Source: Agapetus fuscipes (Eukaryota > Arthropoda > Insecta > Trichoptera > Glossosomatidae). Taken from it: a stretch of DNA of 64,000 nt. The stretch covers positions 62,001-126,000 of the forward strand of contig OX637345.1 in NCBI GenBank assembly GCA_951799405.1. Reading direction: 5' to 3'. The position numbers and the translations under genes are program-made. The stretch's first letter is position 1. The number at the start of each line of letters is the position of its first letter. The notes below the pieces were generated by a model. The model did no database searches. It was not told the origin of the DNA and saw nothing but the letters and a program-made list of their open reading frames with translations. Shown in pieces: positions 22,211 through 42,611 of this stretch.

Positions 22211-25200
22211 ATGGAGATTCGAGTGTACCGCGTGTGTGTGTGCGGGCTGTTCCTGCTCGCCGAATACGCGGCCGTGTACTCCTCACTACAAGGAAATGGG
22301 GTTAGACTCTCAGATCATACCAGAGTGATGTTTGATGATGAAAATGTTGATAATTTGGGAATGCCAAGTTGCTTGTATGTCATGTTATGTTGTAGGCCAG
22401 CACGGAGTTGGCCCGTGAGCAGGATGACCGCCCCCTGCTGTTCTCTTCATGATTGTATGTCATGTTATGTTATGTTGTAGGCCAGCACGGAGTTGGCCCG
22501 TGAGCAGGATGACCGTCCCTGCTGTTCTCTTCATGCTTGTATGTTATGTTATGTTGTAGGCCAGCACGGAGTTGGCCCGTGAGCAGGATGACCGTCCCTG
22601 CTGTTCTCTTCATGCTTGTATGTCATGTTATGTTTTGTTGTAGGCCAGCACAGAGTTGGCCCGTGAGCAAGATGACCGCCCCCTGCTGTTTGCCACCCTG
22701 GGAGGAGGCATGGTGGCCGTGAACCAGCTAACTGGGAACATCATCTGGTCCCTCAAGGATGGTATGCCACGCATCACTTGTCACTCATCACTTGTCACTC
22801 GTCACTTGTCACTCATCACTTGTCACTCATCTCTTTTCACGCATCACTTGTCACTCATCACTTGTCACTTGCAACTTGTCACTCTGTCACTCATCACTTT
22901 TCACGCATCGCTTGTCACTCATCACTTTTCACGCATCACTTGTCACTCATCACTTGTCACTCATCACTTTTCACGCATCACTTGTCACTTCCCACTCATC
23001 CCTTATCACAGTGAGCACATGCAGCATTGTGTTCAGCTCTGGGAGATACAGCTATCTCTGCTGCTGATATGGAGCTCCCACTGGGAGGTCTGGCTGCTAC
23101 ATGTGGTGCATGGAGAGTAGAAGTGTAGTCCAGGATCCAGCAGGGCCGGGCTCGGGTTGACTAAGTCTGTGCTGCTCTCTCTGTTCTTCCTATGGAAACA
23201 TTATGAGAACGGCCTTCATAGCCAACTTTTATTTTTCCTCAGTACTGTGTGACTCAGGTCCTTAGCAATGCAACGCTAACATAACTAAGTTGCATGATGG
23301 TGCAACTTCTTAACGCTCTGTCCCTGAAGGAGTCACATGTGGCGTGTGGAATCTATTTATTTTTACATAACGGGGCCTTACGCCAACTACTTCAGTTAAA
23401 GTGGGCGTGTCCCTTTTTTTGTCAAGTCATTTCCTGAATTCTGTACCCATATTGTACAAAACTGGTTCACTTTGCCAATGTAACCTCGATTTCAGGGAAA
23501 GGCGGCAGGAGTTGCAAACTTTAAGTTCATATGAGATTTGGTTTATTTTGTATGTACACATGCAGCATGTGTAAGCACGTACTATATGTGCTTTTGGGCA
23601 CGCATTAAATATGAGCCTTAAAGGCAAATATATCTTTGCATCTTAGATTATTGATTATTGACGCATGAGGCATGTACAAGCGCAAACTTACTCATGTAAT
23701 TAATATGAATCTCTAATGTTAGTATGTCTTTGCAACTTGGATTAATTATAGATCATAGGTAGATCAAGGATATCTCATGCACGTAATACTGTTGTATAAG
23801 AATAAGTGTTATTATTGAAGGTCTAATTATGCATATAAACCACGCGTATTAATAGTGCTCTGCTTCTGCGATAAAGGACCCAAGTGCCGGCTGGATGTGC
23901 CAGGAAAGTGCTCCTTATTGCCCCTAGCAGATGAGCAGTATTGCCATAGCAAGCATGTGCTGGGTAAACACCAGCCAGGTGCTTCTAATGGTATAATTAT
24001 CACAGATTGTGTACTCGGCTGTTTCTAATTTTAACATGCTGGAGTTTGTGGTTTACTAATCAATGAAAAAACGTGAAGCTATAAAACAACTATTGACATA
24101 TAAATTATAATGTAATGTACCACTAGACTGCCCTGTAGTCCAGTAATTAACACCATGGACTCGTATTCGGATGGTCGTGACTTCGATTCCCGGTTGAGCA
24201 CCAAAAAAAACATAAATTTTTCAAAATATGCCCTTCCCTGGGTTGAAAAATTCATGTATCTTTACCGAACACCTGTCACCAAAGGTCCATCCAGCATTAC
24301 AGCAACTGGGTCTTACTTGTGTGATTGGCGCTTTCTATAGCAACAACCAAGCTTGAAAAGGGCTCTTGAGGGGTGATTCGCACAAAAAAGCGCTCACTAA
24401 ATAAATCATTGTAATATTTATTGACATAATATTAGTTGACCCAAAGCTGTTTTCACTCAAATAGCCATACCTGCTGCAACCTCTTCAGCACAGATCATCC
24501 TTAGTTTAAAGGAGAACAAACATGCAAACATTATATCCAGTAAGGATGAAAAGGAACAATTATTTGAATAGGTTTTCGTTTACAGACTGTTAATACCGGA
24601 GAGTTGCTTTCCAGGATCTGTTGCCGTGGTCTATAGGAACTGGAGCTTCCGGGCTTTTTTCCCATGTATGCGATGGGCTTCTTCAGTGTGGTGAAGGTGA
24701 AGTGATGCTGAAGAAGCCCATTGAAGAAGCCCCAGCAGACATTGGGGAAACGTCCGGAAGCTTCAGCTCCTATAGACCACGGCATAAGATTCTAGAAAGC
24801 ACCTCTCCAATTAATTGTATTTTGAAATTGTTCTTATGAGTTTGGGCTGAATTGTTTATTAATACATTGACTAAGATTTTTTTATATAACTTATTCCCCT
24901 GTATCTTTTCCGCAATTGCCCATTTTGATAAAATAAGTTTGTATTGTTTCCATGCGTGTAGTGATCCGCCTAGTAGGCAGGCCTCCTACATCACATGCAT
25001 GCTTGTCTTCTCACTTGTTGATGTGTTGGCAGAGCCCGTGGTGAAGGTGCCCAACGAGAGCGATCACTTTGTGCCGCAGTTCCTGCCCGACCCGCGGCAC
25101 GGCAGCCTGTACATGTTTGGGGAGCGGCGCGTGCTGAAGAAGCTGCCGCTCAGCATTCCGCAGCTGGTGGCGCGCGCTCCCTGCCGCTCCTCGGACGGCT

Positions 25201-42611: not shown

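Follow-up and report, generated by a model that had tools for sequence, protein, structure and literature searches.

Tandem arrays across splice junctions of the IRE1 gene in the caddisfly Agapetus fuscipes

The IRE1 gene and its junction arrays

The stretch of 64,000 nucleotides from the caddisfly Agapetus fuscipes analysed here (GCA_951799405.1, contig OX637345.1, positions 62,001 to 126,000; hereafter the window, to whose positions and forward (+) strand all coordinates refer unless stated otherwise) encodes at 22211..42611 the stress-sensor protein IRE1, and tandem arrays with units of approximately 50-85 bp cover six of the 26 splice junctions of this gene, four acceptors and two donors. 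The gene model comprises 14 coding exons (exons 1-7 at 22211-22300, 22644-22761, 25033-25278, 26162-26356, 30258-30498, 31732-32386 and 32884-33074; exons 8-14 at 33629-33778, 34188-34327, 34422-34612, 35401-35534, 39746-39893, 41097-41276 and 41958-42611) with GT-AG introns, an open frame of 1,110 amino acids (aa) and homologs among insect IRE1 proteins. The kinase-RNase part finds its best match among solved IRE1 structures in 9gow (E 2.5e-149). A tree of 18 IRE1 proteins pairs the window protein, as sister, with its counterpart from the caddisfly Arctopsyche grandis (support 100/99), and Lepidoptera follow next. The GC content of the coding exons is 61% versus 41% for the introns, with the arrays counted within introns.

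Among the acceptors, that of exon 2 is present in four copies with units of 79-85 bp (22370..22690), that of exon 5 in 18 copies of 61 bp (29187..30283) and that of exon 11 in five copies of 71 bp (35055..35411), the authentic acceptor being the last copy in each. The donor of exon 8 is repeated in seven units of 50 bp (33733..34086; edge repeat CTAAT) and the donor of exon 12 in 11 units of 64 bp (39842..40552; edge repeat CACAGAGCA), where the authentic donor is the first copy. A duplication of intron 8 (34072..34206), with two copies of a 70-bp unit that runs from the end of exon 8 through the whole intron of 40 bp into the start of exon 9, doubles the exon 9 acceptor and holds an eighth occurrence of the exon 8 donor. 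Judged by the reading frame, the authentic site is always the outermost one, the last copy of an acceptor or the first of a donor, and the 1,110-aa frame of the gene model is unbroken if these sites are taken. A preliminary description of the sequence had reported the same six junctions as repeated 2-18 times, with the same range of unit lengths and 47 splice-site copies; Tandem Repeats Finder (TRF) and the sequence agree on the arrays, and the recount (4+18+7+2+5+11) arrives at 47 as well.

With exon sequence recurring within a single gene, the arrays resemble mutually exclusive duplicated exons such as those of insect muscle myosin, where whole exons are repeated in one gene. Mutually exclusive exons are, however, repeated as whole exons with both splice sites, whereas the IRE1 units carry one exon end only, the intron 8 duplication excepted. 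A transposon-borne repeat, the unit of which would be present elsewhere in the genome, was rejected for the exon 5 unit; in a search which skips simple repeats and concerned this unit only, the doubled unit gave nine of nine matches within its own array.

Two further IRE1 arrays are intronic with units that contain no exon sequence, one of 36 bp x 4 located approximately 55 bp before the exon 6 acceptor (31531..31677) and one of 30 bp x 14 that immediately follows that of the exon 12 donor (40553..40975). A 14-bp x 16 array at 22768-22989 begins a few bases past the exon 2 donor, with the donor itself outside. Intron 11 is largely filled by remains of a non-LTR (long terminal repeat) retrotransposon on the reverse strand (35770-38707, -), with endonuclease- and reverse transcriptase-like frames recognized by eye.

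Arrays in other genes, array age and predicted splicing

The pattern is not confined to one gene, as had initially been described, since a PGS1-like gene carries two arrays and a kinesin gene one. The first PGS1-like donor array lies, previously missed, in the same window (61048..61569; 129 bp x 4 with identical copies; edge repeat CAGGAG); the second is found in the first 4 kb past the window (L078:1779-2876) and combines a part of 135 bp x 5.5 with a subsequent part of 106 bp x 4.3; four of its nine donor copies have GTTAGT in place of GTAAGT. PGS1 is the name we presume for this gene from its sequence; the Pfam matches are weak and of the phospholipase-D type, and a phosphatidyltransferase match from NCBIfam is far below the cut-off. 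In the kinesin gene on contig C17, a donor is repeated as 162 bp x 5.9; this array, in which the exon end recurs at 162-bp steps, was derived from a family table and confirmed by the sequence. Together, IRE1 (six), the PGS1-like gene (two) and kinesin (one) account for nine junction arrays; as C17 is another large contig, a phenomenon restricted to the region was rejected.

Seven family tables had been read by eye for repeated matches of the same range (136 rows for kinases, 77 for myosin, 78 for helicase, 89 for kinesin, 22 for ABC, 94 for p450 and 48 for UCH), with a part of the candidates scored in the case of four families (kinase 129/542, myosin 65/110, ABC 19/171 and p450 92/214). This reading detects only units with about 20 or more coding residues, so that the IRE1 arrays would escape it; both PGS1-like arrays, as a positive control, were picked up. 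What stood out in the seven tables were the C17 kinesin array and a myosin exon cluster. The latter (C9:13488271-13490362), which was not counted among the arrays, consists of four similar tandem exons, as would be expected for muscle myosin with its mutually exclusive exons. UCH-family matches at C4:12535151-12541481, 1-2 kb apart with partly overlapping domain ranges, could represent a repeated exon or weak matches, and kinesin exon matches on both strands of the small contig C88 and at C11:11355655-11363158 suggest a retained haplotig or an inverted copy.

The arrays are of graded age. Within the window, TRF matches amount to 96-100% for six arrays and to 89% for that of exon 2, and a decayed copy of exon 3, from its 3' part (25831..25902), shows 79% identity and a dead donor. 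Decayed copies after exons 3 and 11 had been noticed before, and both stand up to shuffling. The exon 3 fossil scores 69 against a maximum of 28 in 200 shuffles, and its likeness extends beyond the donor, where 18 of 23 aligned bases agree (equalled by 0.6% of 1,000 shuffles) and the GT is now CT; the exon 11 copy in intron 11 (35560..35625) scores 43, again against 28 in shuffles. Shortly before the exon 12 acceptor, positions 79-114 of exon 12 recur as a weak copy (39688..39722; score 35 versus 25 in 60 shuffles), perhaps likewise a fossil. The most divergent copy is found at the array end in the exon 12, exon 11 and kinesin arrays, but not in the exon 5 array. All eight copies of the exon 8 donor and ten of the 11 of the exon 12 donor have an intact core, and the matched copies of the exon 5 acceptor share an identical tract; in the oldest copies, inner splice sites are not kept.

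Reading from an inner site hits an in-frame stop in eight of the nine arrays, namely the six in IRE1, the second PGS1-like and the kinesin array, and therefore the outer site is needed for a full-length protein in those eight. The exception is the 129-bp PGS1-like array, where the reading from the inner site stays open. Because intron 8 is duplicated, an inner acceptor and an inner donor flank a potential in-frame microexon of 30 nt (34118..34147) between introns of 339 nt and 40 nt, which would add YIALELDNFR to the kinase domain in frame.

Junction bias, array edges and regional density

That the arrays are centred on junctions beyond chance, as had been claimed, holds inside IRE1. Eight IRE1 units collapsed to single copy (TRF period at least 25 and score at least 100, with the 14-bp array at 22768-22989 and three weak arrays left out) were placed at random, and the observed six of eight on junctions was obtained in none of 20,000 trials; with placement limited to at most 300 bp from exons, P was 0.0018, figures to be read with the overlap of the exon 8 and exon 9 arrays, which are perhaps not independent, and the choice of IRE1 for its pattern in mind.

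Beyond IRE1, eight of 37 junctions here (26 of IRE1 and 11 of the PGS1-like gene, the latter placed by eye) carry arrays, compared with none of the 119 exon edges examined with TRF at kinase and myosin loci outside this region (Fisher P 5e-6), a contrast that is only indicative because the control edges are partly not true junctions and the families are not a random sample. These edges are ends of hidden Markov model matches, 122 from hand-picked rows (49 of 77 for myosin and 21 of 136 for kinases, the latter chosen as not spanning the whole domain) of which three were dropped for missing flanks; some are breaks within one exon, and the number of true junctions is below 119. The proposition that arrays are a genome-wide rule of junctions was, as stated, rejected on these edges. 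At one control edge, an intronic array with a unit free of exon sequence is 9 bp away, and on contig C4 (L014:1281-1492) a 26-bp x 8 array, equally without exon sequence in its unit, is situated approximately 20 bp into the intron from a kinase exon donor.

Minisatellites of any kind number 13 in the 64-kb window versus five in 278 kb of control loci, which overlap in part (256 kb unique). Local alignment of exons with their flanks detected exon copies beside eight of 28 IRE1 exon sides versus six of 120 in 60 control loci; the copies of the exon 11 acceptor, which include 11 bp of exon, did not reach the threshold of this test. All six control sides belong to the C9 myosin cluster, and the Fisher P is 1e-6 without the cluster (0/112) and 9e-4 with it. 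A subtelomeric setting may play a part, as the window occupies 62-126 kb counted from the low end of C13, a contig of 18.0 Mb. In its first kilobase, however, C13 contains only three CCTAA words, myosin exons at 180-186 kb on contig C6 have no array across them and the kinesin array resides 1.5 Mb from a contig end.

At the array edges, seven arrays were collapsed to their single-copy ancestors, with the intron 8 duplication and the kinesin array left out. The homology between the edges of the rebuilt ancestors is 9 bp for exon 12, 6 bp for the PGS1-like array at 61048, 5 bp for exon 8, 2 bp for three arrays and 0 for one; the sum of 26 bp compares with a null mean of 5.2 and was reached in none of 3,000 null draws, an excess which rests on the exon 12, PGS1-like (61048) and exon 8 arrays. 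In the exon 5 array, GAAGTCCTT occurs twice, once in the intron where the unit starts and once in the exon approximately 10 bp past the unit end, which would fit a loss of 10 bp from the duplicate. Direct repeats of 5-10 bp are reported to flank minisatellites of yeast (Haber and Louis 1998, cited from PMC4232551). The short direct repeats at the edges of three of the seven tested arrays resemble these, although the yeast minisatellites are not tied to splice junctions.

Concerning the surroundings, an ANKRD27-like gene resides on the reverse strand between the IRE1 and PGS1-like genes (46301-49219, -) as a single intronless 972-aa frame with VPS9 and ankyrin repeats and, lying between two intron-rich genes, is a possible retrocopy. 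LTR-retrotransposon-like gag and pol frames, recognized by eye (8674-14246, -), are flanked by matching 44-bp tandem repeats (8585-8676 and 15298-15390), and Rfam gave no match at the gathering threshold anywhere in the 64-kb window. A second haplotype of the IRE1 locus was not seen, the IRE1 RNase family matching only contigs C13 and C50, the latter with a different gene. This AT-rich, intronless and very divergent IRE1-like gene (C50:12355-14569, on a contig of 14.6 kb) looks like a contaminant from a microbial eukaryote, perhaps a microsporidian; in view of these features, its interpretation as a retrocopy was dropped.

Relation to amphioxus mirages and origin of the arrays

Although the preliminary description knew of no gene with such a pattern, the mirages of amphioxus are the same kind of structure (PMC3087553, PMC3902484). 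Those are minisatellite-like tandem duplications of intron-exon boundaries in the globins BflGb6 and BflGb9 and in Adh3 (PMC3087553, citing Canestro et al. 2002), with unit lengths of 10-72 bp in Adh3 and 150-160 bp in the globins, and with an array length that differs between haplotypes and somatic cells, such as six and three units in two BflGb6 haplotypes; RT-PCR (reverse transcription polymerase chain reaction) data for Adh3 and the globins suggest regular splicing (PMC3087553). For lancelets, splice-site repeats of 60 bp and 108 bp have also been described in PGBD5, with troponin C named in addition (PMC3902484). As in amphioxus, duplication in the caddisfly is on the acceptor or the donor side with many units bearing splice signals, both 5' and 3' intron boundaries are hit, and the unit spans the exon-intron boundary at six IRE1, two PGS1-like and one kinesin junctions. 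Unit lengths of 50-85 bp (IRE1), 106-135 bp (PGS1-like) and 162 bp (kinesin) are in a range near that of the mirages, and the near-identical caddisfly copies with shared variants may parallel the concerted evolution within arrays in amphioxus (PMC3087553), mirage arrays being homogenized with the more divergent copies at their ends. In contrast to the few globin copies of the cephalochordate, however, six junctions of one gene are affected in this insect with up to 18 copies, and the lancelet PGBD5 repeats differ in being imperfect, the 108-bp repeat being a triplication (PMC3902484). A minisatellite expansion that alters gene structure, sometimes at an exon-intron boundary, is likewise known from human internal tandem repeats in segmental duplications, the units of which average 30 bp x 4; half of these repeats are located in coding sequence, and they are linked to recently duplicated genes (PMC2812944). 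Mirage reports in the literature searched concern lancelets only, with no arthropod case, and the available portion of a study on caddisfly genomes (PMC8881205) does not mention the pattern. The arrays are real, statistically clear within IRE1, precedented in kind, unusually dense and, as far as the literature was searched, new in an arthropod.

We consider it probable that the arrays are of the mirage type, arising by ordinary minisatellite birth, growing by unequal exchange, tolerated at junctions and spliced at their outer sites, the first of the donors or the last of the acceptors. As the edges suggest, slippage or microhomology-mediated repair would have created the initial tandem duplication, at least sometimes between an exonic and an intronic copy of a short direct repeat separated by 50-130 bp, and the near-identity of the copies and their shared variants point to growth by unequal exchange or slippage. 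A duplication straddling a junction would bring the splice site along and leave one complete exon and junction, with the surplus becoming intronic; because duplications within coding exons would be purged unless in frame, exon-touching arrays would survive mainly at junctions. In agreement with exon definition, the splice site in use would be the copy closest to the remainder of the exon, a first donor or a last acceptor. Old arrays, as seen at this locus, decay to exon-like fossils with dead splice sites. The intact frame obtained with the outer copies, the edge homology, the graded ages, the stops met from inner sites in eight of nine arrays and the same structure in two other genes and in amphioxus support this origin. 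Several points weigh against it: four of the seven array edges have just 0-2 bp of homology, splicing at the outer sites is deduced from the intact frame, the high array density of the region does not follow from it, and tolerance alone predicts no surplus of junctions over introns, yet six of the eight IRE1 arrays are on junctions.

It is this surplus, significant even against placement near exons, that speaks for a local mutational process seeded at junctions, as initially suggested, as the maker of the first duplication. At transcribed splice junctions, such a process could act through R-loops, through co-transcriptional splicing or through the change in composition between GC-rich exon and AT-rich intron. 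The compositional step at junctions and the report of the same pattern in amphioxus (PMC3087553, PMC3902484) fit as well. While the excess within IRE1 stands, most junctions are not hot, as the 0 of 119 sampled edges elsewhere indicates, and the 5-9 bp direct repeats at three of the seven edges fit ordinary slippage, so that we regard such seeding as unlikely. Selection of surplus sites as decoys, which would lower or regulate IRE1 output via mis-spliced, stop-containing transcripts, was the other initial suggestion. Use of an inner site would indeed yield an in-frame stop in all six IRE1 arrays, and the donor cores of exons 8 and 12 and the exon 5 acceptor tract are preserved as described, but young homogenized arrays would retain their cores regardless, chance alone likely provides a stop within approximately 60 bp, stops are found in eight of the nine arrays, and arrays of this kind recur in two other genes. 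With the changed cores in four of nine donors of one PGS1-like array and the lost GT of the exon 3 fossil, decoy selection appears very improbable. To an assembly or sequencing artefact we give hardly any credence; the copies carry scattered and shared variants, decayed copies exist, the IRE1 frame is intact, and the assembly, probably built from long reads, comprises 618 Mb in 148 contigs, with contigs of chromosome size and, on C1, telomere repeats at base 1.

Because the same structure occurs at six junctions of one gene in an insect, the mirage type is not lancelet-specific. A further-reaching proposition, which we hold to be rather doubtful, is that splice junctions may be intrinsic seeds of tandem duplication in some lineages, independently in lancelets and caddisflies, which would feed the birth of introns and microexons, with the IRE1 intron 8 duplicate as an exon caught at birth. 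The potential microexon, here predicted from the sequence, is the kind of step that has been proposed for intron gain from mirages (PMC3087553). In any case, arrays of near-identical competing splice sites constitute a natural experiment on the choice of the spliceosome among equal sites, as well as on whether such repeats give rise to new introns and exons.
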